From contig JAJRZX010000065.1 of NCBI GenBank assembly GCA_024275045.1, positions 1 through 33,121 on the forward strand: DNA of 33,121 nucleotides, read 5' to 3'. Shown here one piece after another: positions 2,242 to 32,609 of this stretch. Position 1 is the stretch's first letter. Each line of letters opens with the position of its first letter. Source of the DNA: Deltaproteobacteria bacterium (lineage in GTDB: Bacteria > Desulfobacterota > GWC2-55-46 > JADFVP01). Position numbers and translations under genes: made by a program. Below the pieces are notes generated by a model, which ran no database searches, was not told the DNA's origin, and saw only the letters and a list, made by a program, of their open reading frames with translations.

Positions 2242-4569
2242 ATGTCAATCAATATACTGAATAATCTCAAGATTCGTACAAAATTATTTCTCGGTTTTGG
2301 TCTGGTCCTCGGGCTCATCCTCTTCATCGGCATCTACAGTATAGCTGTATCAAACAATACAAAAAAAGAGATAACCAATATTGAGCATGTCTCTCTGAAA
2401 TCCGCCCTCGCCACCCTCAGCATGAGAACAGCGGTCAACCAGACACAGCAGTGGCTAACGGACATCAGTGCCACGAGAGGGCGTAATGGTCTTAATGACG
2501 GATTCAAAAAAGCTGAGTCATGGGCCGCTAACTTCAAAAAAGAGCTAAGCGTTTTAAAAGGTATATTCAAGGACGATGCCGGGATGCTTGCCAGGCTTGA
2601 CGCTATAAACCAATCCTATGACGAGTACTATGCCGTTGGAGTGAAGATGGCGCAGGCATATGTGGCAGGAGGGCCGGCTCTTGGAAATAAGGTCATGTCC
2701 GAATTTGATATGGCCGCCGATAAGATAAATAATCAGACAAAAAAAATAACAGATGAAAAACTTGCGGACCTCGACTCCAACCTTACCATGCTTCATAACT
2801 GGGCAGAGCATTCAAAGAAATTAAGCATACTGCTGCTCACGGGGGCCATTTTAATCAGTATTATTCTATCAACCCTAATTGCAGGATCCATCACAGGACC
2901 GATTAAAAAAACCATAGCCATGCTTAAAGACATATCAGAGGGTGATGGAGACCTTACGAAAAAGATAGAGGTCTCATCACATGATGAGCTGGGTGAGCTT
3001 GCCAGATACTTTAACACCTTCCTTGACAAGCTCAAGAAGATGATAGGCGAGATAAAGTCCAACGCAGGCACCCTCTCCGAGCACTCACAGGATCTGTACG
3101 CGGCCTCCTCTCAGATGGAGATAGATACGGGGTCCATGTCCTCAAATACAAAATCCGTATCTCTTACCTCCGGCGAGGTTACCACCAATGTAGAGACCGT
3201 GGCCGGCGCAGCCGAGGTGGCCTCGGCAAATGTTACAAACGTCTCCGCCGCCGCCGAAGAGATGAGTCAGAAGATGGTGGAAGTTGCTACTACGACAAAA
3301 GATGTCCTCTCCAACGTACATACTGTTGCCGCGGCCATTGAGGAGATGAGTTCCACTGTAAGCGAGATTACGAAGAATACAACCAGGGCCGCTGAGATCA
3401 GCACAGACGCCACGGAAAAAGCGGTTGAGGCAGAGGTGCTGATGAAAGAACTCAGCACCAGCGCAGATACTGTTGGCAAGGTTATTGAGGTAATAAACGA
3501 CATAGCAGACCGCACGAATCTGCTTGCCCTTAACGCCACTATTGAGGCGGCAAGCGCGGGAGAGGCCGGAAAAGGTTTCGCAGTTGTGGCAAACGAGGTA
3601 AAGGAGCTTGCAAGGCAGACCGCTGATGCAACAAAAGAGGTGGTAAAACAGATTGAAGAGATGCAGAGCAATACCAAGGTAGCGGTCAAGGCCATCGATA
3701 AAGTTGCCTCTACCATAAATGATATAAACGAGATAAATACGTCAATAGCAGCCTCAGTGGAAGAGCAAGACGCAACGACCAATGAGATATCCAAGACCAC
3801 GGTGCAGACAGTGACGGACATGGAAAACGTAACGCGTAACATTGAGGAGACTGCCCTTGGTGCCGAAGAGGTAGCAAAAAACGCTGCAGAGCTCTCCAGA
3901 GGAGTAATGAATATCTCCGATAACATCCAGGAGGCCGCGGTACGCGTTAAGGAGGTTGCCTCAGGCATACAGACAGTGGAAGAGACGTCTGAAAACGCCC
4001 TTGGCTCGGTAAAAGAGGTGCATCAGAGCATTGATGACCTATCCACGGTAAGCGGCAACCTTAATGACCTGGTTGGTCAATTTATTATAGAAGAACAGTT
4101 TAACAAGAGGAACGGTCAGGTGCAGGCACAGAAAACAGCTACGGCTAAAGTGCGACCATTCATAACCTGGCATGACCGTTACAGTGTTGGCGTGGAGATA
4201 TTCGATGCTCAGCACAAGCGTCTCTTTACTCTCATAAATAATGTACACGAGGCAATGGTGCTTGGCGCGGAAAAAGACCGAGTAGTTGCCATACTTGGCG
4301 AGCTCCTTGATTACACCAATAAGCACTTTGGTAAAGAAGAGGAACTAATGCAAAACGCCGGTTATGAGGGATACGAGGATCAACACGAAAAACATATAAA
4401 ACTTGTTGAACAACTCTGCGCCTTTAAGGACGAGTGCGAGAAAGGCAGCGCGGTGATTGATATGAAGCTCATGGGTTTTCTAAAGGACTGGCTCACAAAA
4501 CACATAATGGGCACGGACATGAAGTACAAGAGCTTTTTTAAGACCAAGGGGTTCTCAAAAGTTGCCTGA
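2242..4569 (+). CDS. methyl-accepting chemotaxis protein with C-terminal hemerythrin domain (copy 1)
   Basis: A 775-residue membrane chemoreceptor. Helix 1 is at about residues 13-34 and helix 2 at about 194-214, with a ~160-residue periplasmic sensor of no recognised type between them. A HAMP domain follows (~215-267, [17 protein letters not shown]). The signalling coiled coil has its conserved hairpin tip near 420-460 ([19 protein letters not shown]). A hemerythrin domain spans ~640-770. Its di-iron ligands are mostly present: H658, H695-x3-E699, H718, H754-x4-D759. The position expected for His in the H-x3-H motif is Gln714, with a His shifted to 715. The protein lacks a CheR-binding pentapeptide at its C-terminus and ends ...KGFSKVA. 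AAAGGAG precedes ATG. It heads the chemotaxis operon. Oxygen or redox sensing is inferred from the family. Confidence 0.95.
2920..4569 (+). repeat. duplicated receptor segment, copy 1 (HAMP to stop)
   Basis: Codes for the HAMP, signalling and hemerythrin parts of the first receptor. The protein is largely identical to that coded at 8473-10137, while third codon positions often differ. The duplication is therefore clear but not brand new. Confidence 0.85.
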
Positions 4570-4656: not shown

Positions 4657-7600
4657 ATGAGCGAAAATAACGACTACAGCGACAACGAGATGCTGGCCCT
4701 CTTCATTGAGGAGTCCAAGGAACATCTTGAAGTCGTTGAGCCCTCTTTGCTTACCATGGAGGAAAAAGGTGATGATACAGACGCCGAGGTAATCAATACC
4801 GTTTTCAGGGCCATACACTCCATTAAAGGTTCAGCCGGATTTTTCGGGCTTACAAACATTACCGAGCTCAGCCATATAATGGAAAACCTCATGGCCAGGG
4901 TAAGGGACCGCTCAATATCCACCACCCCGGAGCTGATTAATGTGCTTCTAAAGGGACTGGATAAACTTGAGGGCATGGTTGAGGATGTTACAACAAGCGA
5001 TGAGGTTGATGTATCTGAGGAGATCGCGCTCATTGAGGCCTTAATGTCAGGTGAGCCCTCTACAACTCTTACTACAGCGTCTGAAGAGGCAGAGCCGCCC
5101 CGAGACAAGCATGAAAATGGTGTGTGGAGGGTTGAGGAGTATCACGATGCAACAGAGCAGGCTGTCTCCAGAGGGCATCATCTGTACTCCTTAACCATAC
5201 ACCTTTGCGGTGAGAGCGCAGAACGGGAAAAGGCCATAAGAGAACAGATAGAATTTCTCTCTTCCATTGGTATCATCGTTGCCTCAAGGCCCGATATAAC
5301 CGAGAGCGAGTCCGTTAAAAAACTCGCCGCTGAACAAACCGCTTCACTGCGGCTGCTCTTTGCCTCAATACTTGAAAAAACCCTCCTCACCGAGTCCGCG
5401 GGCCTGGCTGAAGATGATGTAAGTACAGTAGACTGCAAGGCTCTATCCAACTTGAAAAAAAATGATAAGCACAAAGATGAACTCGATTCAGAGCCGGTGG
5501 CATCTAAAAAAGCAACGGTCCCGGATAAGGTCCTAAAAAAAGTAACCCCAAAAAAATCCAATCCCAGAGCAACAGCACCCAAGGCAAGCAAACTGCCAGT
5601 ACAGCAAAAAAAAGAGAGCTCCAAGGTCTCGCCCTCATCGGATACCGTACGTGTACGCGTTGACCTACTTGACAAGATCATGGCCCTTGCAGGTGAGATT
5701 GTTCTTGGACGCAATCAGCTTCTCCGTCAATACGCAGACAAAAAAAACAACAATATTCTAATCGACCACTCTCAGCGTGTTACCGAGCTGCAGGAGAATG
5801 TAATGAAGACACGCCTCCAGCCTGTTGGAGCTGTCTTCAGTAAATTCAAACGAATTGTCCGGGACATGGCGCGCAAGGTGGATAAAAAAATAAACCTTGT
5901 CGTTGAGGGCGAGGATGTTGAGCTTGACCGCTCCATTATCGAGGTCCTCTCAGACCCGCTTACTCATATGATACGAAACTCCGTGGACCATGCCATTGAG
6001 TCCCCTGATGAGAGGGTAAGGCTTGGGAAATCAGACACCGGTCTTATAAACCTTCGTGCATCACACGAAGGCGGGCTCGTTGTTATTGAAGTTGAGGATG
6101 ACGGCGGGGGCATTGATTCTGTGATGATAAAAGAAAAGGCCCTTGATAAAGGAATCATCTCAGATGATGAGGCTAAAAAGATGAGTGATAAAGAGCTTGT
6201 AAATCTCATCTTTCACCCCGGTTTCTCTACTGTCACCGAGGTCTCGGAGCTATCAGGCAGAGGCGTGGGCATGGATGTGGTAAAGAGGAGCTTTGAAAAG
6301 CTGGGCAGCACCATTGACCTGCAGTCCACACCCGGCGAGGGCACTCTGTTCACGGTACGCCTTCCCCTTACCCTTGCCATCCTTCCATCTATCATAGTAA
6401 CGGTAGGCGCAAATACCTTTGCCATCCCGCAGGTTGATATTACGGAGATCGTCCGTATCAGAGAGCAGGATCTTGCAGAGCAGCTTGAGGAGATTGAAGG
6501 TCAGAGTGTCTTTCGTCTAAGAGGCAAGCTCCTTCCCGTAATAAGTCTTGCTCATATTCTGGAAAGAAGAGAGCACGCCCCACACACAAAAGCCGTGGAG
6601 CCGCGGCCTGAAGGAACCGCCGATACAGATAACGATGAGAGCGATAACTCACAAGGCATCAGGCGCCTTATTGTAATGCGCTACGGCGCAAACCACCTCG
6701 GGCTTCTTGTTGACACAGTGCTCGACCCTGAGGAGATTGTCGTCAAACCCATGCCACAGATCGTAAGGTCCTGTAAGATTTTTGCCAGCGCTACCATTAT
6801 GGGAGACGGTCACGTAGCCATGATTCTCAACATAGGCGGCATTATCGAAAAAGCCGGGTTCCGCTTTGAGAGCTTTGAGAAAGAGACCCGTCAATATGAG
6901 GAGGATGAGCGTAAAAAGGCCATGCAGGAGACGCAGAGCATTCTTATATTCAAGAACCCCGCTGATGAGCACTTCGGAATCTCACTCTCCATGATAAGCA
7001 GGATTGAAAAAATCAGTGGCCATGATGTTACATCCCTTGCAGGGAAAAGATTTGTTAATTTCCGAGGTAAAAGTATTCAGCTAATCTCCGTGGAGGACTA
7101 TATCAATAAGAATAACGAGCAGAGCCAGGACAAAGACATCTATGTCATTATCCCAAAGACAAGAGGACAGATAGCAGGTATCGCGGCTGATGAGATTGTT
7201 GATGTACTTGACATCTCACTTGTTATGGATGAGGGCACAATTGATTCTCCCGTTGTTATTGGTTCAACTATTATTGAGAAAAAGATGACCCTGATGATTG
7301 ACGTATATACGCTTCTTGAAAAAGCCCTGCCAAGCCGCGCAGCCGCAGGAGCATCCACGCATCACGATGAGAGAAAGATACATATACTGCTTGTTGAAGA
7401 CACGCCTTTTTTTCAGAACCTTGAAGAGCGCTACTTTGCCTCAGCAGGTTTCAAGGTCACCATAGCCTCTGACGGAGGCAAAGGTCTTGAGATGCTTCAG
7501 GCCGCACCCGCTGCATTCGATATTGTCGTATCAGATATTGAGATGCCTGTAATGAACGGTTATGAGCTTGTAAACGCCATAAGGAACAACGAACGCCTCT

Positions 7601-7782
7601 CTCACCTTCCGGTCATGGCCCTTACTTCTCTTAATACCGAGGAAAACAGAAAACGCGGTATAGACGCGGGTTTTGATGCCTACGAGGTCAAGGTAGACAA
7701 GGACAGCCTTATTAACCGGGTTTATGAATTAATTCATAACCGCGCGAAAGACGGTCTCCTGAAAGGTGCCGCCACGGCATAA
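4657..7782 (+). CDS. cheA: hybrid chemotaxis histidine kinase CheA with two CheW-like domains and a receiver
   Basis: 1041 residues, longer than classical CheA (~650). Order: Hpt domain with phospho-acceptor His54 (AIHSIKGSAGFFG); a poorly conserved region ~150-255 where P2 normally lies; a Lys/Ser/Pro-rich linker ~265-325; dimerisation helices (~328-400); ATPase with N-box LTHMIRNSVDHAIE near 435-448, G1 VEDDGGGID and G2 GRGVGMDVV; a first CheW-like domain ~571-733; a second, more divergent one ~765-895; and a receiver ~903-1025 with phospho-acceptor Asp960 (VVSDIEMPVMNG). The kinase phosphorylates CheY and CheB in response to receptors. The fused receiver probably acts as a phosphate sink or internal brake. 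It lies between the two receptors in the operon, 36 bases before the second one. Confidence 0.95.
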   Translation: MSENNDYSDNEMLALFIEESKEHLEVVEPSLLTMEEKGDDTDAEVINTVFRAIHSIKGSAGFFGLTNITELSHIMENLMARVRDRSISTTPELINVLLKGLDKLEGMVEDVTTSDEVDVSEEIALIEALMSGEPSTTLTTASEEAEPPRDKHENGVWRVEEYHDATEQAVSRGHHLYSLTIHLCGESAEREKAIREQIEFLSSIGIIVASRPDITESESVKKLAAEQTASLRLLFASILEKTLLTESAGLAEDDVSTVDCKALSNLKKNDKHKDELDSEPVASKKATVPDKVLKKVTPKKSNPRATAPKASKLPVQQKKESSKVSPSSDTVRVRVDLLDKIMALAGEIVLGRNQLLRQYADKKNNNILIDHSQRVTELQENVMKTRLQPVGAVFSKFKRIVRDMARKVDKKINLVVEGEDVELDRSIIEVLSDPLTHMIRNSVDHAIESPDERVRLGKSDTGLINLRASHEGGLVVIEVEDDGGGIDSVMIKEKALDKGIISDDEAKKMSDKELVNLIFHPGFSTVTEVSELSGRGVGMDVVKRSFEKLGSTIDLQSTPGEGTLFTVRLPLTLAILPSIIVTVGANTFAIPQVDITEIVRIREQDLAEQLEEIEGQSVFRLRGKLLPVISLAHILERREHAPHTKAVEPRPEGTADTDNDESDNSQGIRRLIVMRYGANHLGLLVDTVLDPEEIVVKPMPQIVRSCKIFASATIMGDGHVAMILNIGGIIEKAGFRFESFEKETRQYEEDERKKAMQETQSILIFKNPADEHFGISLSMISRIEKISGHDVTSLAGKRFVNFRGKSIQLISVEDYINKNNEQSQDKDIYVIIPKTRGQIAGIAADEIVDVLDISLVMDEGTIDSPVVIGSTIIEKKMTLMIDVYTLLEKALPSRAAAGASTHHDERKIHILLVEDTPFFQNLEERYFASAGFKVTIASDGGKGLEMLQAAPAAFDIVVSDIEMPVMNGYELVNAIRNNERLSHLPVMALTSLNTEENRKRGIDAGFDAYEVKVDKDSLINRVYELIHNRAKDGLLKGAATA

Positions 7783-7818: not shown

Positions 7819-10137
7819 ATGAGAACAAATACCCTGATTTTTAAATCAACTTTTTTGCTCAGTCTCTTTGCGGCGTTCATGCTGATAACGGTTGGAGTTA
7901 CTTTTTACGTTGTACAGAGCCAGTCATCAGATGCCAGCGTTATAAATATCGCGGGACGGCAGAGGATGCTTACTCAGAAGATAACCAAGGAGAGCCTGAA
8001 CTTTTTAAAAGTAGGCATGAACAAAGAACTCTCCGGCAAGATACTTAATAACCTTAAACACACGGTAAGGCTCTTTGACAGAAGCCTCCTTGCCCTTAAG
8101 GACGGCGGTAAGACTGTTGGTACAAAAGGTTATAAGGTAACTCTGCCTCCAAGCCGCGGTGAGGCACGCCTTCAATTTCAAAAAGTTGCCGCACTCTGGG
8201 GCGCCTTTAAGAAGAACATTGATATTCTTACAGCCCCCATGTCTTCAGTGGGAAACCTTCAGGAATCCATTCAGAAGATTACCGGTAATAACATGGCTCT
8301 GCTCAAGGCCTCAAATAAGGCGGTAGGCATTCTCACGGAGCAGTCCGCGGCAAAGATATCTTTTCTTAAGACTGTTCTTATCTCCGCGCTCCTTATCACC
8401 ACTATTCTCGTAGTGCTATCGCTTTACTTTGCAAACAGAGTACTCTTTCGTCCCATAAAGAAATTCCTTGCCATGTTAAAAGACATCTCAGAGGGCGATG
8501 GAGACCTTACAAAGAGGATACATGTCTCCTCAAATGATGAGATAGGTGAGCTTGCAAGATACTTTAATACCTTTCTTGACAAGCTCAAGAAGATGATAGG
8601 CGAGATAAAGGATAACGCTGCCACGCTCTCCGAGCACTCACAGAACCTCTACTCAGCCTCATCACAGATGGAGATAGACACGGGTTCAATGTCATCTAAC
8701 GCTCAATCCGTAGCCGATACCTCAGGCGAGGTTGCCGCCAATGTAAAGACCGTGGCAAATGCCGCAGAAGTTGCATCGGCCAATGTTACAAATGTCTCCG
8801 CCTCCGTAGACGAGGTGAGTCAGAAGATAGTACAGGTTGACTCCACGACAAAGGACATACTCTCTAACATTCACACCGTTGCCGCGGCAATTGAGCAGAT
8901 GTCGTCCACGGTAAGCGAAATCACGAAAAACACCACCAAGGCCGCCGGCATCAGCGCAGATGCCACTGATAAGGCAGGTGAGGCAGAGATACTTATGAAA
9001 GACCTTAGCGCCAGCGCCGAGACCGTTGGAAAGGTAATTGAGGTGATAAATGATATTGCCGACCGCACGAACCTCCTTGCACTTAACGCCACCATTGAGG
9101 CGGCGAGCGCGGGAGAGGCGGGCAAGGGTTTTGCCGTTGTGGCCAATGAGGTAAAAGAACTTGCACGGCAGACGGCAGAGGCGACAAAAGAAGTAGTCAA
9201 ACAGATAGAAGAGATGCAGGGCAATACCACAGTAGCCGTTGAGGCCATTGGCAAGGTAGCCTCTACCATTCATGACATAAACGAGATAAACACCTCCATA
9301 GCAGCCTCTGTGGAAGAACAAGACGCAACCACCAATGAGATATCCAGGACCACTGTGCAGACCGTTACGGATATGGAGGCTGTCTCGCAGAACATGGAGG
9401 AGGTGGCACTTGGCGCCGAGGAGGTGGCAAAGAACGCGGCTGAGCTCTCAAGCGGAGTATTGGAAATCTCCAATAATATTCAAGAGGCCGCGGTGCGGGT
9501 TAATGAGGTATCTTCAGGGATACAGATAGTGGAGGACGCCTCAGTGAACACCCTTGACTCTGTAAAAGACGTGCACCGCAGCATAGACAACCTCTCTAAC
9601 GTCACAGGCAACCTTCATGACCTGGTGGGCCAGTTCATAATAGATGAGAACGATATAAGAGAGGTCTCAAGCACAACTGGGACAAGGCAGGGCAAACCCC
9701 GTAAGGGCAAGGCCGGGATTAAACCATTCATAACCTGGAAAGACCGTTACAGCGTTGGTGTAGATTTATTCGACTCTCAGCACAAGCGTCTCTTTACTTT
9801 AATCAATGACGTCCACGAGGCCATGGCCATGGGTTCCGGCAAGGAGCGCATGGGCAGCATACTTACGGAGTTAATAGATTATACGGCAAAACACTTTAAC
9901 GAAGAAGAAGAGCTCATGAAAAAAACAGGTTATGACGGGTACGAGGCCCACCACGAGAAACACACCTCTCTTGTTGAGACGGTTGTTGGTTTCAAGAATG
10001 ACTTTGATTCCGGCGCCGCGGAGGTGGACCTTAAGCTCATGAGTTTCCTCAAAGACTGGCTCTCCAAACACATCATGGGTACGGATATGAGGTACAAGAA
10101 GTTCTTTAAGGAAAAGGGCTGCGCAAAGGTGGCCTGA
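7819..10137 (+). CDS. methyl-accepting chemotaxis protein with PilJ/NarX-like sensor and C-terminal hemerythrin domain (copy 2)
   Basis: 772 residues, with helices at ~8-32 and ~182-203. The periplasmic part starts with [18 protein letters not shown], the hallmark of the PilJ/NarX-type N-terminal domain, so its sensor is unrelated to that of copy 1. From HAMP (~207-260) to the C-terminus it is nearly a copy of the first receptor, including the hairpin tip [19 protein letters not shown]. The hemerythrin domain (~636-768) has the complete ligand set: H655, H692-x3-E696, H711-x3-H715, H751-x4-D756. It should therefore bind a di-iron centre and O2 or a related ligand in the cytoplasm. AAAGGGAG lies upstream of ATG. 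Inferred role: reporting both a periplasmic signal and intracellular oxygen or redox state to CheA. Confidence 0.95.
8473..10137 (+). repeat. duplicated receptor segment, copy 2 (HAMP to stop)
   Basis: Direct-repeat partner of 2920-4569, beginning with the same HAMP motif [14 protein letters not shown]. The similarity stops upstream of HAMP, so the duplication or recombination boundary lies at the sensor/HAMP junction. Confidence 0.85.
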
Positions 10138-10230
10138 GCCAACTTGTACTCACCACCCACATGAGATCTCCGCTGATGTATGTGGCCCGCATATCAGCCC
10201 CATGGACTCTCTCTTTGCAAGGAGCAGATA

Positions 10231-10716
10231 ATGCAATACGCAACTTTTTATATTGATGAAGCCCTTTACGGTATACCCATACTTACGGTAAGGGAGATAA
10301 GCAGGTTTTTCGATATCACTCCGATACAGGGAGCTGATGAGCGTATTGAGGGGCTTCTGAATCTGCGTGGACAGATTGTCACGGTACTTAACCTGGGCCG
10401 TTGTCTGCATACAATACCTGTCCCGCTCTCGGAGAAATCGCGTATCATTATCCTAAAGACTGATGAGACCCTAACCGCCGAGGCCGCTACAGCAGGCATC
10501 TCCACCTCACCCGATACACTTGCTTTACTTGTTAGCAGCATCGGAGACGTTGTGGACGCAGAGGACAACAGTATTGAACCTCCTCCGCCCCATTTATCAG
10601 GCACCTATGTATCAGGCATTGTACAGCATGGCAGCGAACTTCTCACACTGCTCTCCACGGAGTGGCTCTGCGCACTTGAAGAAGATGACGGTATTCCGTT
10701 AACAGTGAAGAGCTGA
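10231..10716 (+). CDS. cheW: chemotaxis coupling protein CheW
   Basis: 161 residues from ATG at 10231, which has AAGGAG 6 bases upstream. An in-frame ATG at 10180 would add 17 residues with no match to CheW, so I reject it. The CheW fold is visible: YATFYIDEALYGIPILTVREI, then IEGLLNLRGQIVTVLNLGRCL, SRIIILKTDE, a 15-20 residue Ala/Thr-rich insertion, LALLVSSIGDVVDAED, and VSGIVQHGSELLTLLST. CheW bridges receptor tips and CheA on the cytoplasmic face of receptor arrays. This copy comes in addition to the two CheW-like domains inside the hybrid CheA. Confidence 0.93.
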   Translation: MQYATFYIDEALYGIPILTVREISRFFDITPIQGADERIEGLLNLRGQIVTVLNLGRCLHTIPVPLSEKSRIIILKTDETLTAEAATAGISTSPDTLALLVSSIGDVVDAEDNSIEPPPPHLSGTYVSGIVQHGSELLTLLSTEWLCALEEDDGIPLTVKS

Positions 10717-10843
10717 TATAGGAGAGTACGAAGAGGTATTGCTCACGCTTATATTTTCTTAATAAAGAGGTCTAACCCTGTACGCAGCGCCTTGAGATAA
10801 GACTGGACAAGAGAGGTTAAGCTGCAACGACAAGGAGCGGATT

Positions 10844-11938
10844 GTGGACGGCAATAAAATAAAAGTTTTAATCATAGACGACTCTGTTACATACAGGGCA
10901 ATTCTCTCAAAGACACTCTCATCCATTGAGGGATGTGAGGTGGTAGGCGCGGCGACGAACGGGAAGGTGGGTCTTGATATGGTTGCCCTTCACAGACCTG
11001 ATCTCGTAACCCTTGATATAGAGATGCCGGTTATGGGCGGCCTTGAGACGCTTCAGCACCTTACAGGAAAGTACAAGGATACGGGTGTCATCATCGTCTC
11101 ATCCGCCAATGCTCACTCCGCTGACCAGACAGTGGAGGCGCTCAGCCTTGGCTGCCTTGAGTTTATCGTTAAACCCGATACCACGAGCCTGGCAGTGGCA
11201 AGAGAGGCCCTTGAGAAGCAGATACGCCACGTACTCTCAGTCTACAGAAAAAAAATAGGCGCCCCCCTCATAAAGTCCCCTCCCGCGGCAACGCCTCCCC
11301 TACAGAGATCTGTTGCCGCCTCGAGAGCGTACAGGGGCAAGATAAAAGAGCCCCGCATACTTGACCTTATCGCCATTGGCACGTCTACAGGGGGGCCGCG
11401 CGCCCTTGAAGAGCTCATCACAAGGCTTCCCGGCACAATCCCCGTACCTATTGTAGTGGTTCAGCACATGCCCCCACTCTTTACAAAATCGCTGGCGAAA
11501 AACATCAATGATAAATCCGCCCTCAATGTCTGCGAGGGCAGCGACGGGCAGAAAATTATGGCAGGCAATGTCTACATCGCCCCCGGCGGCAGACACATGG
11601 CCTTACTTAAAGGCAGCGACAGGCAGGCTCATATAACCATAAATGACAATGCCCCGGAAAACTCATGCAGACCTTCTGTTGATGTGCTCTTCAGGTCTCT
11701 TACAACAGTGTACCGCCCGACGAGAATCCTCTGTGTAATCCTCACGGGAATGGGGGCAGATGGAGTAAAAGGCGTACAGTATCTACAGGAGCAAGAGGGT
11801 GGGTACTGCATTACTCAGTCGGAAAAATCATGTGTTGTCTACGGCATGCCGCGCTCTATAGCGGAGGCAAAGCTCTCTCACGAACCTCTGGACCTTAAAG
11901 ACATAGCGCGGCGGATTACATCTCTCAGCATGTACTGA
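10844..11938 (+). CDS. cheB: chemotaxis response regulator protein-glutamate methylesterase CheB
   Basis: 364 residues from a GTG start, chosen because AAGGAG lies 6 bases before it. The N-terminal receiver has Asp58 as phospho-acceptor (VTLDIEMPVMGG) and ends near residue 125. A ~45-residue Pro/Ala/Arg-rich linker leads to the methylesterase domain, with the catalytic triad Ser181 (IGTSTGGP), His208 (VVVQHMP) and Asp306 (LTGMGADG). It removes methyl groups from receptor glutamates, and may deamidate receptor glutamines, when phosphorylated by CheA. Together with CheR in the same operon it provides adaptation for the two receptors. No cheD is seen nearby. Confidence 0.95.
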   Translation: MDGNKIKVLIIDDSVTYRAILSKTLSSIEGCEVVGAATNGKVGLDMVALHRPDLVTLDIEMPVMGGLETLQHLTGKYKDTGVIIVSSANAHSADQTVEALSLGCLEFIVKPDTTSLAVAREALEKQIRHVLSVYRKKIGAPLIKSPPAATPPLQRSVAASRAYRGKIKEPRILDLIAIGTSTGGPRALEELITRLPGTIPVPIVVVQHMPPLFTKSLAKNINDKSALNVCEGSDGQKIMAGNVYIAPGGRHMALLKGSDRQAHITINDNAPENSCRPSVDVLFRSLTTVYRPTRILCVILTGMGADGVKGVQYLQEQEGGYCITQSEKSCVVYGMPRSIAEAKLSHEPLDLKDIARRITSLSMY

Positions 11939-12042
11939 GAGGATTAAGGGATGAGACAAAAGACAGGGGAAAGACTATATTTTTACTAACCTTTACCAAC
12001 TACGGGAATCTCTAAAACACAAAACAGGGGACTGCGGATACC

Positions 12043-12897
12043 ATGGCGATAAGCAAAGAAGAGTTCGACCTCTTCAGGACGTATATAAAGGACAAGAGCG
12101 GCATTACCCTTAACTACGGCAAGGAATACCTTGTTGAGAACCGCCTCTCCGTCCTCATGGCACAGAACGGCTGCGAGACTTTGCTGGACTTTTACAAGAA
12201 AATTTCCCTTAACAACAGCCAGCTCGGCAAAAAAGTCATTGACGCCATGACAACGAATGAGACCCTGTGGTTTAGAGACGCTACCTTTGTTGAGGCAATG
12301 GAGGATAAGGTCATACCGTGGCTTATACGCAAGGCAGCGAAAAAGACCGTTCGCATATGGAGCGCCGCCTCATCAACCGGGCAGGAGGCTTACTCCGTTG
12401 CCATGCTCATTGATGACGCGCTACGTAAAGGCGGTGCAGCTGCTCCGCCCGCTAACAGGTTCCAGATAACAGGCACGGATATATCTCCATCCGTAATCTT
12501 CATGGCAGTTGCCGGCAGATACAGCCAACTTGCCGTATCACGAGGCATGCGTCCGGAGTTTCTCACCAAGTACTTTAAGAAAGAGGGCGTAGTTTATACG
12601 ATTGACGAGAAACTTCGCAATATGGTCACCTTCAAGCAGCTCAACCTTACGGAGTCTTTTCTCACCATGGGACAATTTGACCTCATACTCTGCCGTTATG
12701 TGCTTATTTATTTTGATGAAGATCTGAAGTTAAAGATATGCAGCAAATTTCACAAGGCCCTGCACGCTGAGAGCCTTCTCGCCATCGGCGCCACGGAATC
12801 CATACGCGGCTCCAAGGACTTCACTCGTATATTAACGGGAAGAAGCACGTTATATTACCCTCTCTCAAAGGGTAATGATACCTTCAACGGGTTCTAA
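12043..12897 (+). CDS. cheR: chemotaxis protein methyltransferase CheR
   Basis: 284 residues. An N-terminal helical domain (FDLFRTYIKDKSGITL ... FYKKIS) is followed by the S-adenosylmethionine-dependent methyltransferase domain. Motifs seen are MTTNETLWFRD, IWSAASSTGQEAYS (cofactor loop), ITGTDISPSVI and FDLILCRYVLIYF. The last is usually CRNVLIYF, so Asn is replaced by Tyr here. There is no C-terminal TPR extension. It methylates receptor glutamates. The ribosome-binding site is weak (AGGGG about 12 bases before ATG). A 104-base gap separates it from cheB. Confidence 0.94.
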   Translation: MAISKEEFDLFRTYIKDKSGITLNYGKEYLVENRLSVLMAQNGCETLLDFYKKISLNNSQLGKKVIDAMTTNETLWFRDATFVEAMEDKVIPWLIRKAAKKTVRIWSAASSTGQEAYSVAMLIDDALRKGGAAAPPANRFQITGTDISPSVIFMAVAGRYSQLAVSRGMRPEFLTKYFKKEGVVYTIDEKLRNMVTFKQLNLTESFLTMGQFDLILCRYVLIYFDEDLKLKICSKFHKALHAESLLAIGATESIRGSKDFTRILTGRSTLYYPLSKGNDTFNGF

Positions 12898-12948
12898 TGC
12901 CTGAGAAGATTTTTTGATAGCCGCAATGGTAGAGATAAGGGAGAACAG

Positions 12949-13326
12949 ATGAAAATAATGACGGTTGACGACTCCAGAATAATACGAACCATTATCAAGG
13001 GTATCATAGCCACTCTGGGCTACGAGACAGTGGAGGCCGACTGTGGCGCTGCCGCACTAAAGCTCCTTGGCCAGACCGATGCAGATGTATCCCTTATACT
13101 TCTTGACTGGAATATGCCGGGGATGAACGGCCTTGAGGTGCTTCAGGCCATTAAGGCGGATGAGAACCTTAAAGATATTCCCGTGATGATGGTAACAACA
13201 GAGGCGGAGAAGAGTAATATTGTAAAGGCCATACAGAACGGAGCAGCCAATTACCTGACAAAACCATTTCAGCAGGAAGAGCTGGCCGGAAAGATTATGG
13301 AGTGCCTTGGCATGGGGAGTATCTAA
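12949..13326 (+). CDS. cheY: single-domain response regulator CheY
   Basis: 125 residues, a lone receiver domain. The acidic pair is Asp7/Asp8 (TVDDSR), the phospho-acceptor is Asp53 (LLDWNMPGMNG), the switch Thr is at 83-84 (MVTTEAE), and the conserved Lys is Lys105 (YLTKPF). Its usual role is to carry the signal from CheA to the flagellar motor switch. The motor genes are not in this window. Its stop codon overlaps the start of the HDOD gene (TAATG), showing translational coupling. Confidence 0.94.
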   Translation: MKIMTVDDSRIIRTIIKGIIATLGYETVEADCGAAALKLLGQTDADVSLILLDWNMPGMNGLEVLQAIKADENLKDIPVMMVTTEAEKSNIVKAIQNGAANYLTKPFQQEELAGKIMECLGMGSI

Positions 13327-14204
13327 TGAGTGAATCAAATCGGGATGATATTTTAAGGACTCTCGCTGCTGTCAGCGACCTTCCAACGCTGCCGCAGGTG
13401 GTAACAAAGCTGCAGGAAGAGATGGCCTCTCCTAATGCCTCCGCAGGTTCCATATCGGATATAATACGCGAGGACCCGGCTATCTCCATTAAGACCCTGA
13501 GAGTTGCCAACTCCCCGCTTTACGGTCTTGGCCGCAAGGTTACGGATATCAGAGACGCCGTACGCGTACTGGGGCTGAAGGAGGTTTACAATATTGTTAT
13601 GAGCATGTCCACGCTCAACCTCTTTAAGAGCGACACTCATATAAACTACAAAAAATTCTGGACACATTGCCTCTCCGTGGCTTTTGCCACAAAGGCCATA
13701 TTTGAGTTTACAGGGGATATGGAGCGCCCGTTAGAAAAAGAAGAGCTGGCAGACCTCTTTATAGCAGGGCTGCTTCATGATATTGGCATACTTGTACTGG
13801 ATCAATACAAACCAGAGCTCTATAAAATGGTTCTTCAAAAAGTATCGGAGCTCGGCGAGGTGCCTCTATATGGCGTGGAGTACGAGCTTCTGGGAATTTC
13901 CCACGGCGAGATTGGCGAGTTTCTCATGAACAAATGGAATATCCCAGCGCATATTGCCACTGCCGTAGCCTTTCACCACAGGTCTGAAGCCATAACCGGT
14001 AAGAGAGAGCTTACGGAGATACTGCACATAGCTGATTTTATCTGTAATAATCAGGGGCTTGATAACGGCCTCGGTGTGCTGCCTACGTCATTTTCCGATG
14101 AGGCATGGAGTAACCTTAACCTTTCCATTAACGATATAAGTGCAATAATTGAGAAGGTACGAGTGGAATCAGAGAACTCCGCTATTCTCATGGCCCTTGC
14201 CTGA
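13326..14204 (+). CDS. HDOD domain protein
   Basis: 292 residues from ATG at 13326, which overlaps the cheY stop codon. An earlier in-frame ATG at 13302 lies inside cheY and adds only 8 residues, so the later start is preferred. The HDOD domain covers about residues 15-215: LPTLPQVVTKLQEEM, IIREDPAISIKTLRVANSP, DIRDAVRVLGLKEVYNIV, AGLLHDIGILVLDQY and IATAVAFHHRSEA. The fold is related to HD phosphohydrolases. Family members usually act as signalling scaffolds or regulators, and catalysis has not generally been shown. Its place between cheY and cheX suggests a regulatory output or c-di-GMP-linked role in this chemosensory pathway. That is an inference. Confidence 0.88.
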   Translation: MSESNRDDILRTLAAVSDLPTLPQVVTKLQEEMASPNASAGSISDIIREDPAISIKTLRVANSPLYGLGRKVTDIRDAVRVLGLKEVYNIVMSMSTLNLFKSDTHINYKKFWTHCLSVAFATKAIFEFTGDMERPLEKEELADLFIAGLLHDIGILVLDQYKPELYKMVLQKVSELGEVPLYGVEYELLGISHGEIGEFLMNKWNIPAHIATAVAFHHRSEAITGKRELTEILHIADFICNNQGLDNGLGVLPTSFSDEAWSNLNLSINDISAIIEKVRVESENSAILMALA

Positions 14205-14247
14205 GGTGGCTGTACAGAGGATATACCCAAATAACCGAGAGGAAAAT

Positions 14248-14718
14248 ATGGAAAAGCAGAATGCCAAGAACCAGAAACTCATAGATGGGCTTCAGGGCGC
14301 TGTCTCGTCTCTTTTTAATACAATGATAGGTCTGGAGCCCCTTTATAAGGAAGGCACAGAGGCTGATACCTTCTCCCTTAGCGCCGATGTCGCTGGTATC
14401 ATGTACATACAGGCAGACCCGCCGGGCATGGTTGCCTGCGGTGCCCCTACCGTACTTGCACGCAGTATCATAGGCAAGATGACAGGTATTGCCGAGGCTG
14501 AGCTTGAGGAGGGGGATATATCCGACGGGCTTGCGGAGATGGTAAATATGCTCTGCGGCCATATTAAGACCCAGCTGCCGGAGCTCTGTATTAACCTCAC
14601 TCCTCCGCTCTCGCTTATTGGCAGAGAGAGCAAGGTATGCTGGAAGACCGCTCATCCATCCATAGTGCTGAGATTTGATATCTCAGGCAGTGAGCTAACT
14701 GTTGCGGCAGCACTGTAA
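14248..14718 (+). CDS. cheX: CheX-like chemotaxis phosphatase
   Basis: 156 residues from ATG at 14248, preceded by GAGAGGAAAAT. The longer frame from 14149 overlaps the previous gene and has an unlikely N-terminus. The central helix ISDGLAEMVNMLCGHIKT has the E-x2-N pair (Glu97, Asn100) that marks the active site of the CheC/CheX/FliY phosphatases. IMYIQADPPGMVACGAP and LSLIGRESKV fit the CheX fold. It would dephosphorylate CheY-P and end the signal, filling the place of the absent CheZ. It is the last gene of the operon. It could be a more distant CheX-domain protein with another receiver as its target. Confidence 0.8.
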   Translation: MEKQNAKNQKLIDGLQGAVSSLFNTMIGLEPLYKEGTEADTFSLSADVAGIMYIQADPPGMVACGAPTVLARSIIGKMTGIAEAELEEGDISDGLAEMVNMLCGHIKTQLPELCINLTPPLSLIGRESKVCWKTAHPSIVLRFDISGSELTVAAAL

Positions 14719-23974: not shown

Positions 23975-26212
23975 TTAGACAATATCAAGAATAAACTCAA
24001 GAAACCTCTTCACCTCTGACTGGTCCTTAAGGTAATAATCCGACTCCCTGCTCATGCCTATGGATACAGAGAGCCCCCATCCCTTTAAGACCTTGTAGGC
24101 GTCCTCATCAGTGGTATCATCGCCTACATAAACAACGTCCCTTCCCGGCATCATGGTATCGCATATCCATTTCACGGCATCGCCCTTATTCCATATATCA
24201 CGGGGGCGTATCTCAAAGACTTTTTTGCCCGAGGTTATGCGCAGCGAATCATCGTGGCCCTGAACGCAGTTAAAGAAGACATCGAAAAAATCAGCGAGTT
24301 GACGGGTCTTAACCTGCCTGTAGTGAATGGATACGGTTACGCCCTTGTCCTCTATGATTACGCCGGGAATGCCAGAGACCCCATCGGTGAGTCTGCTTAA
24401 AATGTCCTCGATAAGATCTCTTTTTTCAGTCTCGTTCTGAGTTACCACCACACCTGCCCCGTCCCAGATCTCGGCACCGTGATTACCTGCGTATATTAAA
24501 TCCGCGATGCCTATGCGTTCCCTGATATCAGTGAGGCCGCGGCCGCTGATTACGGCTACGCGGGTTTTTTTCTTTAGACTTAGTATGAGCTCGCGCATCT
24601 CCGCTGAGAGCACGGCCGCATCAGGGGTGGCCATTATCGGTGTAAGGGTACCGTCAAAATCAAGAAAAACAACAGGCGGGCCCGCGGCGTTCTCGCCAAG
24701 TATCATTGAGAAATCCTCTTTATGATCAAAGACATAAGAGAGGCTCTCATCCATGGAAGATGAGACTCTGAGAATGGCGCGTATTATATCGAATATCCAG
24801 TGGTATATATCAAAGTCCCGTACATGGGTGCGTAGCGCTGACATGCGCGCCTTTTTTTCTCTTGCCGATAATAACAGGGCATCCTTTATCTTGTCGGCAA
24901 AGTCCTCAACATCATATGGATTTACAAGCATGGCGCCTTCGAGCTCCTCGGCAGCGCCTGCGAACTCGCTTAAGATAAGTATGCCCTTCTCATCCACCTG
25001 CGAGGCGATAAACTCCTTTGCCACAAGGTTCATCACGTCATAAAGGGAGCTTACAATGGCTACATCGGCAAGCCTGTAGTATACGGAGAGGTCCTTGACC
25101 TCGGCCTTTTTGTCAAGGTACACCACGGGCCGCCACCCGTCCTTTGCAAAACGTATGTTTATCTTATTAACAAGGGCCTCCACGGCCTTCTTGTACGTTA
25201 TATACGGCTGGCTCATCCTTGTGGGCACGGCTATCTGTACAAAGGTAAACTTGCCTCTAAAACTCCTGTACTTCTCAAAGAATAAATTTATGGCCTGCAG
25301 CCTCTTGATAAGGCCCTTTGTGTACTCAAGCCTGTCAACGCCTATGCCGAGATAATTACCAAGCTCCAGCCTGCCGTGTATTTTTTTAATGGTGTTAACG
25401 GTTCTTCTGGAGCTTGCGTGGTTATTGAATTTATCAAAATCAATACTTATGGAAAAGGACTCCAGGCGGGTGATATGACCTTTGTAGGTAACGGTGCTGT
25501 TATCGTAATCCACCTCCGCGTCGTCAAGGCACTCGCGAACACAATCCATGAAGTTCCGTGTAAAGAGCGGTATCTGAAAACCAAGCAGATCATTGCCAAG
25601 GAGCCCCACAATGAGCTCCTTTGCCTGCGGGCATACCCTGAAGGCAAACCAGTTGGGCCAGGGGATGTGCCAGAAATGCATAAGGGGCAGATCCGGAACC
25701 GCAGCCTTTATCATGGCAGGGGCAAGACAGAGATGATAATCATGGAGCCATACAATAGAGTCGGCGGCGACCTCGGAGATAACGGCATCAGCGAATTTTT
25801 GATTCACCACAACATAATCCCGCCAGAATTTCTTCATAAAAAAAACTCTGTCAAGGGAGAGATGACAGAGCGGCCAGAGCATGTGATTTGAGTATCCGTT
25901 ATAGTAGTTATTAACCTCCCGCGAGGTTAACCAGACGCGTTTAAGGTTATAAGAGGGGTTCTCCGGCGGCACGGCTACGCAGTCGTTGGTAACTGTCTCT
26001 TTATCGGCGTTGCCGCTGCCCCAGGCCACCCATGTGCCGCCAACAGCTCGAAGCACGTCATCCATGGCCGAGGTAAGTCCTCCGGCGGGTCGCTCTACCT
26101 TAAGCCCCGTGGCGGTTCTCTTATGGACATAGGGCTCACGGCTTGATACTACGATGAGGGACCTATCTGCGAAGTTGTCTTCTACAAGTGCCTTTAGCCG
26201 GCTTATGCTCAT
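23975..26212 (-). CDS. bifunctional GT20 synthase / HAD phosphatase (trehalose-6-phosphate synthase-phosphatase type)
   Basis: 745 residues, an OtsA-OtsB fusion. The GT20 part (~15-480) has GGLTSAMDDVL, NGYSNHMLWPLCH, VWLHDYHLCLAP, HFWHIPWP, VDRLEYTKGLIKRL (donor-phosphate Arg/Lys), VMNLVAKEF and LSEFAGAAEEL. The HAD part (~510-740) has FLDFDGTLTPI (nucleophile Asp), VISGRG, YAGNHGAE and GDDTTDEDAY. The combined reaction is NDP-glucose plus glucose 6-phosphate to trehalose 6-phosphate, then trehalose. Deviations from E. coli OtsA: SSR for SNR, YDVMNL for RDGMNL, HIPWP for HIPFP. The nucleotide donor, or even the acceptor, may therefore differ; glucosylglycerol-phosphate synthases are relatives. 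ATG overlaps the treT stop by four bases. Confidence 0.9.
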   Translation of the reverse strand: MSISRLKALVEDNFADRSLIVVSSREPYVHKRTATGLKVERPAGGLTSAMDDVLRAVGGTWVAWGSGNADKETVTNDCVAVPPENPSYNLKRVWLTSREVNNYYNGYSNHMLWPLCHLSLDRVFFMKKFWRDYVVVNQKFADAVISEVAADSIVWLHDYHLCLAPAMIKAAVPDLPLMHFWHIPWPNWFAFRVCPQAKELIVGLLGNDLLGFQIPLFTRNFMDCVRECLDDAEVDYDNSTVTYKGHITRLESFSISIDFDKFNNHASSRRTVNTIKKIHGRLELGNYLGIGVDRLEYTKGLIKRLQAINLFFEKYRSFRGKFTFVQIAVPTRMSQPYITYKKAVEALVNKINIRFAKDGWRPVVYLDKKAEVKDLSVYYRLADVAIVSSLYDVMNLVAKEFIASQVDEKGILILSEFAGAAEELEGAMLVNPYDVEDFADKIKDALLLSAREKKARMSALRTHVRDFDIYHWIFDIIRAILRVSSSMDESLSYVFDHKEDFSMILGENAAGPPVVFLDFDGTLTPIMATPDAAVLSAEMRELILSLKKKTRVAVISGRGLTDIRERIGIADLIYAGNHGAEIWDGAGVVVTQNETEKRDLIEDILSRLTDGVSGIPGVIIEDKGVTVSIHYRQVKTRQLADFFDVFFNCVQGHDDSLRITSGKKVFEIRPRDIWNKGDAVKWICDTMMPGRDVVYVGDDTTDEDAYKVLKGWGLSVSIGMSRESDYYLKDQSEVKRFLEFILDIV

Positions 26213-27420
26213 AACTCAAGTATGTGTCTGCCTTTATTCTGTACTGAGTACCATACGCCAAGATAGTCTCTTATATGCCTGGTGATGAGAAAGTTGTTTC
26301 TTACGTACTCTTTTGCCTCTTCGCCCATACGCCTAGCCATCTCGGGATTATTGAAAATCTGTCTTATCCTGAAGGCCGCACCATGAACGGAATGAACGAG
26401 AAAACCCGTAACTCCGTGCTCTATCTGAAGAGGTATGCCGCCTACGGCGCCTGCCACAACTGGTTTGCCCTTCCACATGGCCTCGCTTACGGTAAGACCA
26501 AAGCCCTCTTTCAGGGATTTCTGCACCACAACGGTAGCAGCGCGCTGCAGGGCGTTAATATCTTTATTGCTGAATGGGGGCAGCATCAGTATATGAATAT
26601 CCGGGTCTGTGCCGGCGGCCTCTTTTACTTCCTCAAGCACAATATCAGCCTCAGGGTCATCCGTAGCAGGGCTGCCTGCGAGAACAAGTATGCAGTCATT
26701 GTATTTTTTTACGTTGCGGTAAGCCTCTATCACTCCCACAGGGTCTTTAAAGCGGTCAAAACGAGAGACCTGAAGTATCATCTTTCGGTCCGCGGGCAGC
26801 TCGAACTTCGCCAGCGTCTCCGCGACCTCCTCTGCGGTAAGGTCTCTGTTCTTATCTGCAAGAGGGTCAATGGAAGGCGGTATTATGAACTCGTCCATAT
26901 CCATTGGTTTGGCAAACTTGGATACAGAAAATATTGAGGCGTCATAGAGCCTGCAGTAGCGCTCCACATTATTGTAGACCTGCGGCATGGGGTTGGAGAT
27001 ATCTATATGGCATCTCCATATCCAGATACCCTCTTTTCTATACTCCACAAGGGGCACGGGCTGAGGGTCGTGTATTATTACGGCATCGGCCTCAAGGTTC
27101 ATGGTAGAGGCGTTTTTTTTGTTAATATCATAGTGGTGCTGCCACATGGCATCGGTTATTATCTCAGTATCACCCTGCAGTGCGTTATGGACTTTTTTTG
27201 TCATATCAAAAAAGTCGCCGTCGCCCTCAATGGCCTCCCAGCGCACGTCTATGCCAAGGTCTTTTAAAAACGGGACCATGCGAACAAGTATCTCAGCCAC
27301 GCCTCCTCCGGCAAGGGTGGAGTTTACGTGAAGGAATTTTTTGTCCCTGAAGATATTACATAATTTTTTTACGAGAATAAGATCTCCCTGCGGGGCTATA
27401 CCCGTGTATTGATCTATCAT
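26209..27420 (-). CDS. treT: trehalose glycosyltransferring synthase TreT-like (GT4)
   Basis: 403 residues, GT-B fold. Features: FLHVNSTLAGGGVAEIL (nucleotide-sugar glycosyltransferase start with the TreT-type GGGVAEIL), AVIIHDPQPVPLVEY, IWRCHIDISNP, ILQVSRFDRFKDPVGVIEAY, VVQKSLKEGFGLTVSEAMW (E-x7-E) and VGGIPLQIEHGVTGFLV. TreT condenses NDP-glucose with free glucose to make trehalose directly, a reaction that is reversible in known enzymes. It is coupled by ATGA overlaps to both neighbours, so it is made together with a two-repeat protein and the OtsA-OtsB fusion. It gives the cell a second route to the same type of product. The assignment rests on motif recall, not on a search. Confidence 0.85.
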   Translation of the reverse strand: MIDQYTGIAPQGDLILVKKLCNIFRDKKFLHVNSTLAGGGVAEILVRMVPFLKDLGIDVRWEAIEGDGDFFDMTKKVHNALQGDTEIITDAMWQHHYDINKKNASTMNLEADAVIIHDPQPVPLVEYRKEGIWIWRCHIDISNPMPQVYNNVERYCRLYDASIFSVSKFAKPMDMDEFIIPPSIDPLADKNRDLTAEEVAETLAKFELPADRKMILQVSRFDRFKDPVGVIEAYRNVKKYNDCILVLAGSPATDDPEADIVLEEVKEAAGTDPDIHILMLPPFSNKDINALQRAATVVVQKSLKEGFGLTVSEAMWKGKPVVAGAVGGIPLQIEHGVTGFLVHSVHGAAFRIRQIFNNPEMARRMGEEAKEYVRNNFLITRHIRDYLGVWYSVQNKGRHILEL

Positions 27421-30115: not shown

Positions 30116-31642
30116 TTAATCATTACGCCAGAAACGCCTCTCTCTGGTCATAAGCTCCTCGGCTGCATCAGGTCCCCAGGACCCGGCCTCGTACTCAACA
30201 ATCGGCGGAGCGGACTCGCCCTGCCATGCCTCTAAGATCTGAGTTATATAAGCCCACGACGCCTCTATACCGGCTTTATGTGGAAAGAGCGTGGCATCGG
30301 ATAACATGCAGTCAAGTATAAGCCTCTCGTACGCAAGGGGCAGCTCTGCCTTAAAGGTCTCGCCGTAGGAAAAATCCATGGTGACCTGCTCCATATGGCG
30401 CGACGAGCCCGGCCGCTTCACATTAAACTGAAAGGCTATGCCCTCATCTGGCTGAATCTTAAGTATGAGCGTATTATTCTCCGGGCACCCCGTAAGAGTC
30501 TGCGTAAAAAGGCATATGGGCACTCGCTTAAAGTGTATGGCTATCTCGGTTACGTTTTTTTTGAGCCTCTTGCCTGTTCTGAGATAAAATGGCACATCAG
30601 CCCATCTCCAGTTATCAATAAAGACTTTAAGGGCCACAAAAGTCTCAGTCTCAGAGTCCGCCGCGATACCCACCTCGTCTTTATACCCCGGCACCTCCTG
30701 CTCATCCAGAGTCCCTGCCGCGTATTGACCACGCACGGTATCAGATGAGACATTATCGCTGCTTATGGGGCGAAGGGCCTGCACAAGCTCTATCTTCTCT
30801 CTTCTTATCTTACCGGGGCTCATTGATGCAGGGGCCTCCATGGCAACAAGGCTTAAGAGCTGCATGAGGTGGTTCTGCACCATGTCTCGAAGCGTGCCTG
30901 ACTCCTCGAAGTATTTGCCGCGTTTACCCACACCATTTGTCTCTGCGGCAGTTATCTGCACATGGTCGATATACCGCCTGTTCCAGATGGGCTCGTAGAT
31001 TCCATTGGCAAAACGGAAGAATAGAATATTCTGCACCGTCTCCTTGCCAAGATAATGGTCTATCCTGTAAATCTGCTCCTCATCAAAATACTTTGCGATT
31101 ACCTCATTGAGGTTCTTGGCGCTGGCAAGGTCGCGGCCAAAGGGTTTTTCTATAATTACCTTTGGTCTGTCAATGGCCGCGGCACCGTCATCGGAGAGCC
31201 CGGCCTTGTAGAGGTTCTCGATAATAACCTCAAAAAAACTTGGCGGCGTGGCAAGGTAAAATATCCTTGATGCCTGCGGACCCTCGGTCTTCTCGTCAAG
31301 TACCTCAAGTACACGGGTGAGCTTTTTGTATCCGCCGTCATCATCAAAAGAAGATGAGACAAAATGAGTGTTCTGAAATAGAGCCTCAAGATGCGCCTCT
31401 TCAGGCTCACGTGGCGAGTACTTTTTAACCGCGCTTACGGCAAAATCTCTGAACTCACTGTGAGAAAAATCTCTTGTGGAGTAACCCACGATATTAAAAG
31501 TCTTTGGCATGAGCCCCAGGACTTTTAACCTGTAGAGCGCGGGCAGGAGTTTTCTCTTTGTAAGGTCTCCGGTGGCACCGAATATCACCATGGTAGTAGG
31601 CGCGGGTGTAAGTGCAGGTACAACGGATGTGCTCTCAGACAT
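30116..31642 (-). CDS. zwf: glucose-6-phosphate 1-dehydrogenase
   Basis: 508 residues from ATG at 31642, which has AGAGGA just upstream. The frame is open for 44 more codons, but that extension reads back into the end of gnd and is not protein-like. Seen: [19 protein letters not shown] (dinucleotide binding), [11 protein letters not shown], and [14 protein letters not shown] with the catalytic His and substrate-binding residues. The C-terminal beta-domain includes FYLRTGKRL. It oxidises glucose 6-phosphate and makes NADPH (or NADH), feeding the oxidative pentose phosphate pathway. It lies between gnd and pgl. Confidence 0.95.
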
Positions 31643-31712
31643 AACTTCCTCTCTGATTACAGGTAAGATAAGCGCGGTGCCCTGCAGGGCTGAACACCGT
31701 GCTTGCGGTAAA

Positions 31713-32609
31713 CTACTTTTTAAATCCGTGTCCGCCGAACTCGTCACGAAGCGCCGCAAGAAGCCTTGCCGCAAATGGATTGACCTCCCTTGAGCGCAGC
31801 CTGTACAAGAGCGAGAGCGTGATTACGGGTATGGAGACGTCTTTTTCCAGCCCGTCCATAACCGTCCACCTGCCCTCGCCGGAATCAGCCACATAGGGTT
31901 TAATCCCCTCAAGAGTTCCGTCTTTTTCAAAGGCAAGCTCCGCCAGCTCCAGAAGCCAAGAGCGCACAACGCTGCCGTGGTTCCAGACACGGGAGATTTT
32001 TTCAAGGTCCAGATTATACTCCGATGCCTCAAGAAGAGAAAAACCCTCGGCATATGCCTGCATAAGCCCGTACTCAATACCGTTATGCACCATCTTCACG
32101 TAATGACCGGCACCCGGGCCGCCCATGTACTCATACCCGTTCTCCGGGGCAAGGGTCTTAAATACAGACTCGCACCTCTTAAACGCACGGGACTTTCCGC
32201 CAACCATGAGGCAATACCCCTCTGTAAGCCCCCATACCCCGCCGCTTGTGCCTGCGTCAAGAAAGTCTATGCCAAGGGCGGCAAGGGCTTTTGCTCTCCG
32301 CACCGAGTCCTTATAATTGGAGTTTCCCCCGTCGATAATACAATCGCCTTTACTGAGAAGCGGAATTAGTTTCTCAATGGTGCCGTCAACAGGTTTACCC
32401 GCAGGTATCATAAGCCATATGGTACGCGGGCCCTGAAGTTTTGAGACCATGCCCTTTAATGACCTCGCTCCGGCGGCACCGTACTTAAGGGCCTTATCAA
32501 CGGGAGCTTTATCCTTATTAAATACCACAAGCTCATGCTCACCGTCCTTTAGCAGCCTCCTAACCATATTCAGCCCCATCTTGCCAAGACCTACGAAACC
32601 TATCTGCAT
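31713..32609 (-). CDS. gnd: 6-phosphogluconate dehydrogenase, short (GndA/YqeC-like) form
   Basis: 298 residues, much shorter than the ~470-residue enzyme of E. coli, and typical of the short bacterial form. The N-terminal dinucleotide site is [26 protein letters not shown] and [13 protein letters not shown] bind substrate, and the catalytic Lys is in [17 protein letters not shown]. The C-terminal part is a single helical unit. It decarboxylates 6-phosphogluconate to ribulose 5-phosphate. Short forms often prefer NAD over NADP (family knowledge, not visible here). GAGG lies 7 bases before ATG. It is the first gene of the gnd-zwf-pgl unit, 70 bases before zwf. Confidence 0.92.

Follow-up and report, generated by a model that had tools for sequence, protein, structure and literature searches.

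The window analysed here, that is, the whole stretch of 33,121 nucleotides from contig JAJRZX010000065.1 of a Deltaproteobacteria bacterium, contains a chemotaxis cluster with two receptors, here termed copy 1 and copy 2, whose genes lie on either side of a CheA-type hybrid kinase gene (Table 1). The order of the genes that follow, CheW-CheB-CheR-CheY-HDOD-CheX, is the same in Deltaproteobacterium OFTM298. By Pfam, both receptors have the layout of DcrH (a periplasmic domain, HAMP, MCP and a C-terminal hemerythrin), and the hemerythrin domain of each scores above the Pfam cut-off. Copies 1 and 2 are DcrH-type chemoreceptors of one chemotaxis cluster, with the hemerythrin domain in the cytoplasm. 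Elsewhere in the window are adjacent trehalose synthesis genes on the minus strand (positions 23975-27420), coding for a fused trehalose-6-phosphate synthase/phosphatase and a TreT-type trehalose synthase, and near them is a gene for glucose-6-phosphate dehydrogenase (30116-31774).

Table 1. Features of the chemotaxis cluster, in positions of the window.
Feature	Positions	Strand	Domain source
Copy 1 receptor, 775 aa: TarH/4HB periplasmic domain, HAMP, MCP, C-terminal hemerythrin with Gln714	2242..4569	+	Pfam
Copy 1 hemerythrin domain, four-helix bundle in the AlphaFold2 model	4162..4566	+	
CAA codon, Gln714 of copy 1, in the column of McHr His77	4381..4383	+	
His715 of copy 1, McHr position 78, surface-type; His in copy 2 as well	4384..4386	+	
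CheA-type hybrid kinase between the two receptors: Hpt, dimerisation, HATPase and CheW domains, receiver	4657..7782	+	Pfam
Copy 2 receptor, 772 aa: PilJ periplasmic domain, HAMP, MCP, C-terminal hemerythrin with full ligand set	7819..10137	+	Pfam
CAC codon, His711 of copy 2, counterpart of Gln714	9949..9951	+	
Remaining chemotaxis cluster: CheW, CheB, CheR, CheY, HDOD protein, CheX	10180..14718	+	

The identity between the two receptors is 78.1% in the HAMP-MCP part and 65.9% in the hemerythrin domain, compared to 22.8% in the periplasmic (N-terminal) part, where the Pfam families are also different (TarH/4HB in copy 1, PilJ in copy 2). From these differences in identity we conclude that the cytoplasmic parts are paralogous, while the periplasmic sensor parts have been either exchanged or diverged beyond recognition. 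An earlier note on this DNA had described the hemerythrin domains as near-identical, which is too strong a term for 65.9% identity. Between the two hemerythrin domains Ka is 0.23 and Ks is about 2.1; the resulting Ka/Ks of about 0.1, which is rough because Ks is close to saturation, speaks for continued purifying selection on these domains.

Ligand positions were assigned after bacteriohemerythrins of solved structure. The ligands of McHr, the bacteriohemerythrin of Methylococcus capsulatus, are His22, His58, His77, His81, His117, Glu62 and Asp122, and both copies match this spacing. As read from the DNA, copy 2 has the complete set of seven ligands (H655, H692-x3-E696, H711-H712-x2-H715 and H751-x4-D756), whereas copy 1 has six of the seven (H658, H695-x3-E699, Q714-H715-x2-H718 and H754-x4-D759), with Gln714 at the position of McHr His77. 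Aligned by phmmer to McHr (4xpx) and DcrH (2avk), copy 1 shows no gap around helix C, and Gln714 falls opposite McHr His77 and His718 opposite His81. In hemerythrins, position 77 binds Fe1 together with positions 81 and 117. The claims of the earlier note that Gln714 replaces an iron-ligand histidine in copy 1 and that copy 2 retains the complete set are both confirmed, the former by the DNA together with an alignment to solved bacteriohemerythrins of the kind that the note had suggested, in which Gln714 falls on the ligand column and helix C has no gap. The codon is CAA in copy 1 compared to CAC in copy 2. A sequencing error at this single codon base is unlikely, as an independent syntenic receptor in another genome also has Gln, encoded there by CAG.

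AlphaFold2 predicts an intact four-helix bundle for both domains, with nearly equal helix boundaries and a mean pLDDT of 94.2 for copy 1 and 91.2 for copy 2, in models that contain no metal. The best structural match to the copy 1 model in the Foldseek comparison is McHr, with an rmsd of 1.4 Å, compared to 1.5–1.8 Å for DcrH. A histidine, His715, adjoins Gln714, and one scenario is that it shifts into the vacant place and makes the diiron site complete again. The earlier note had drawn attention to this residue, which is indeed present but is not special to copy 1, as copy 2 reads HHEKH and has the equivalent histidine next to its true ligand. Position 78 is Lys or Arg in 40 of the 63 domains of the phylum sample and polar or charged in 51, which is typical of a surface position. 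In an ideal helix, it is located at 60 degrees from position 81 and on the opposite side from position 77, and most of the Gln domains have no histidine there. The shared histidine in copy 2 and the surface character of the position led us to reject His715 as the replacement ligand; the sequences and models argue strongly, if not with finality, that such a role is unlikely, and full restoration of the diiron site in this way would be extremely improbable.

The Gln variant is not confined to copy 1. In a pattern search, 22 of 395 phylum genomes encoded a hemerythrin with Gln77 and the remaining pattern ligands kept. When position 77 was left free, the 63 domains found in 148 phylum genomes had His in 56 cases, Gln in 6 and Lys in 1. 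The phylum patterns required the other ligands with the exception of His22, and this residue is kept in 35 of 35 Gln domains. A collection of 21 domains from the order of the window, which was gathered by protein similarity and not by ligand pattern, shows no exception at the six other ligand positions (126 of 126 cells); at position 77, 5 of these domains have Gln and 16 have His. The QHxxH form is rare and was found at 10 loci among approximately 85,000 species genomes, in Pseudomonadota, Spirochaetota, Bdellovibrionota and relatives of Desulfobacterium; the excess of His78 among the Gln domains is a product of the QHxxH search itself. Candidate compensating second-shell residues tied to Gln77 by Fisher tests include Met18, with only four supported independent pairs. 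The earlier note had considered the possibility that Gln is common at this position in domains shown to bind two irons. Gln is common there (6 of 63; Bailly et al. 2008, PMC2556348), but the structures and literature searched contained no Gln77 hemerythrin with a solved structure, a measured metal content or demonstrated binding of two irons, and no biochemistry of a Gln variant was found in the literature searched.

Several loci combine different residues at position 77. A hemerythrin with Lys at position 77 (L088:5450-5890) is located beside a Gln-type gene. A Desulfobacterium protein of 465 aa (L069:6511-7905) contains three tandem hemerythrins with two Gln and one His at position 77 by profile alignment. 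A genome of the window's family has three consecutive single-domain hemerythrin genes (L147:1444-3090), one with Gln and two with His, and the Gln gene is closely related to the one next to it.

In a tree of 109 domains, which is short of columns, position 77 changes 18 times at the best estimate, and at least four changes are forced by supported branches. Clades consisting entirely of Gln domains are found among class III cyclases, in a five-member clade of family f35, among HD-GYP proteins and among metallo-beta-lactamase/cNMP proteins. The cyclase clade has five Gln members, and their His relative is also a cyclase. Judged from the sequences, Gln77 is a recurrent and evolutionarily maintained variant of the family. 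The frequent changes of state, the fact that a single transversion suffices and the difference at position 77 between orthologue and paralogue would all fit a near-neutral substitution, in which Gln serves as an amide ligand equivalent to His and both domains function in the same way. However, of the residues that a single base change can put in place of His (Asn, Asp, Tyr, Leu, Pro, Arg and Gln) Gln alone is common, the 63 domains including no others besides the single Lys. This indicates that position 77 is selective. Moreover, several clades are fixed for Gln, and we regard a near-neutral change as rather improbable.

The class III adenylate/guanylate cyclases with a C-terminal hemerythrin are located at L075:4852-6258, L092:855-2153, L094:4067-5392, L083:5104-6252 and L104:5959-7320; position 77 in this family is Gln in L075, L092, L094, L083 and L093 and His in L104. 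Hemerythrin-cyclase fusions are absent from the characterised sensors listed in a 2022 review. Proteins that combine metallo-beta-lactamase and cyclic-nucleotide-binding domains with a C-terminal QHxxH hemerythrin (L068:703-3363, L073:1815-4514, L074:2-2194 and L067:2-691, the last a cut fragment) occur in MAGs of Spirochaetes and Methylococcales, and it is possible that they are redox-controlled enzymes.

Copies 1 and 2 pair as sisters in the receptor tree (100/100). The OFTM298 receptor branches just outside them (99/98), and the relatives beyond it have His. Either history takes two changes on this tree: two separate gains of Gln, or a single gain followed by a reversal in copy 2. The statement of the earlier note that copy 1 lost its histidine is consequently not established, given also that the syntenic OFTM298 receptor has Gln, and we dropped the interpretation of Gln714 as a loss in copy 1, the direction of change not being fixed by the tree.

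One of the three Fe1 histidine ligands is missing from copy 1, and Bailly et al. (2008) considered that altered hemerythrins may have drifted from the canonical motif, with possible loss of function (PMC2556348). Copy 1 could by this reasoning bind one iron, at the Fe2 site, or none, and its hemerythrin domain could be a metal-poor or structural remnant, leaving the periplasmic domain alone to signal. Against this speak the Ka/Ks of approximately 0.1 and the persistence of Gln-only clades across families. Copy 1, like every Gln domain found, also retains the other two Fe1 histidines, both bridging carboxylates and all remaining ligands. The low Ka/Ks and the retained ligands disfavour simple decay of copy 1, and we consider a metal-poor domain unlikely.

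The explanation that we favour, with a probability of roughly 0.55, is that copy 1 still binds iron, most likely at a diiron site with an altered Fe1, so that the two receptors would report different ranges of O2 or redox state. We base this preference on the gap-free alignment, the intact modelled folds, the six other ligands, the recurrence of the variant and its fixation in clades, and the low Ka relative to Ks between the domains. Fe1 of copy 1 would keep two strong histidine ligands, while Gln714 could coordinate weakly by its amide oxygen or give way to a water ligand. The altered shell of Fe1 would in turn be expected to shift the redox potential, the autoxidation rate or the affinity for iron and its retention. 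Copy 1 would then act as a sensor with altered tuning beside the canonical sensor of copy 2, both feeding one kinase; with the same MCP output they would cover different O2/redox ranges, and their periplasmic domains would report different signals from outside the cell. The characterised bacterial hemerythrin sensors, Bhr-DGC and Bhr-HD-GYP, are switched by the redox state of their diiron site rather than by a stable O2 adduct (PMC9388753).

A second hemerythrin is present within approximately 6 kb at 5 of 20 Gln loci compared to 2 of 52 His loci, in a count where the flanks are uneven and the contigs end at differing distances; p is 0.015 and becomes 0.04 when near copies are merged. The difference is suggestive of a preferential location of Gln loci beside another hemerythrin. 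From known hemerythrin chemistry, an open coordination site at Fe1 is expected if Gln does not bind. Together with the adjoining hemerythrins, such a site would fit a changed ligand specificity of copy 1, for example for NO or peroxide, which would make the receptors a two-gas sensor pair. The pairing signal is nevertheless small, and the periplasmic domains differ as well, so that the pair does not provide a clean comparison; we consider this proposal very unlikely. A difference between the two domains in metal content or ligand, which the earlier note had raised, is possible. The arrangement as sensor and reference, proposed in the earlier note, has no specific support, as the signals that the two receptors can detect outside the cell are different too. 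A reference would have to be otherwise equivalent to the sensor, and the 22.8% identity and different families of the periplasmic parts indicate that these receptors are not; the scheme is unproven.

These results lead us to speculate, quite tentatively, that Gln77 hemerythrins could form a discrete functional class with an alternative diiron or Fe1-labile site. Such a class would have arisen many times and been selected in sensor proteins (chemoreceptors, class III cyclases, HD-GYP proteins and beta-lactamase-fold/cNMP proteins), often beside a canonical hemerythrin, widening the range of O2 or redox state that is covered. The two receptors form a natural near-minimal pair, located in one cluster, with the same output domains and one ligand changed, and as such provide a test of the need for all seven ligands. 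Changes that have long been taken for defects may be tuned sites, since the same Gln recurs, alone among the ligand positions in the order of the window, and is kept in whole clades of sensors.

Among known systems, DcrH of Desulfovibrio vulgaris shares with both receptors the succession of periplasmic domain, HAMP, MCP and C-terminal hemerythrin, as well as the fold. It differs in having all seven ligands where copy 1 has Gln for a helix C histidine, and in its periplasmic part, as the TarH/4HB and PilJ domains of copies 1 and 2 are unlike that of DcrH. A change of CheA activity driven by O2 or redox state has been proposed for DcrH (PMC9388753). McHr (4XPX) resembles copy 1 in fold and ligand spacing but is a single-domain protein that keeps His77, in contrast to the Gln of a multidomain receptor. 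In the hemerythrin-like domain of P1B-5 ATPases, the helix C motif is also non-canonical, with HxE in place of HxxxH, and a non-heme diiron site has been described (PMC9388753); other residues are altered there, and position 77 is not Gln. Another counterpart is the OFTM298 receptor (L063/L070), a PilJ-HAMP-MCP-hemerythrin protein with Gln77 in the QHxxH form, which is encoded in a syntenic CheA-receptor-CheW-CheB-CheR-CheY-HDOD-CheX cluster. That cluster has only one such receptor, placed like copy 2, which has His.

The Gln variant itself is already known. Bailly et al. (2008) found iron-ligand changes in 18% of 327 bacterial hemerythrins, mostly in helix C, with Gln as the most frequent replacement of an iron-ligand histidine (PMC2556348), and copy 1, where Gln replaces a helix C ligand histidine, is a further case. 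Alvarez-Carreno et al. (2016) reported variants among 106 single-domain sequences and asked whether they represent loss or a new function (PMC4919030). Most of the altered proteins in the study of Bailly et al. had a single domain, and they were treated as possibly defective, whereas copy 1 is a multidomain receptor in which the variant is accompanied by six retained ligands and by signs of selection. The present data add that the variant clusters at a single position, with the rest of the site kept, and that it is fixed in clades and found in multidomain sensors.
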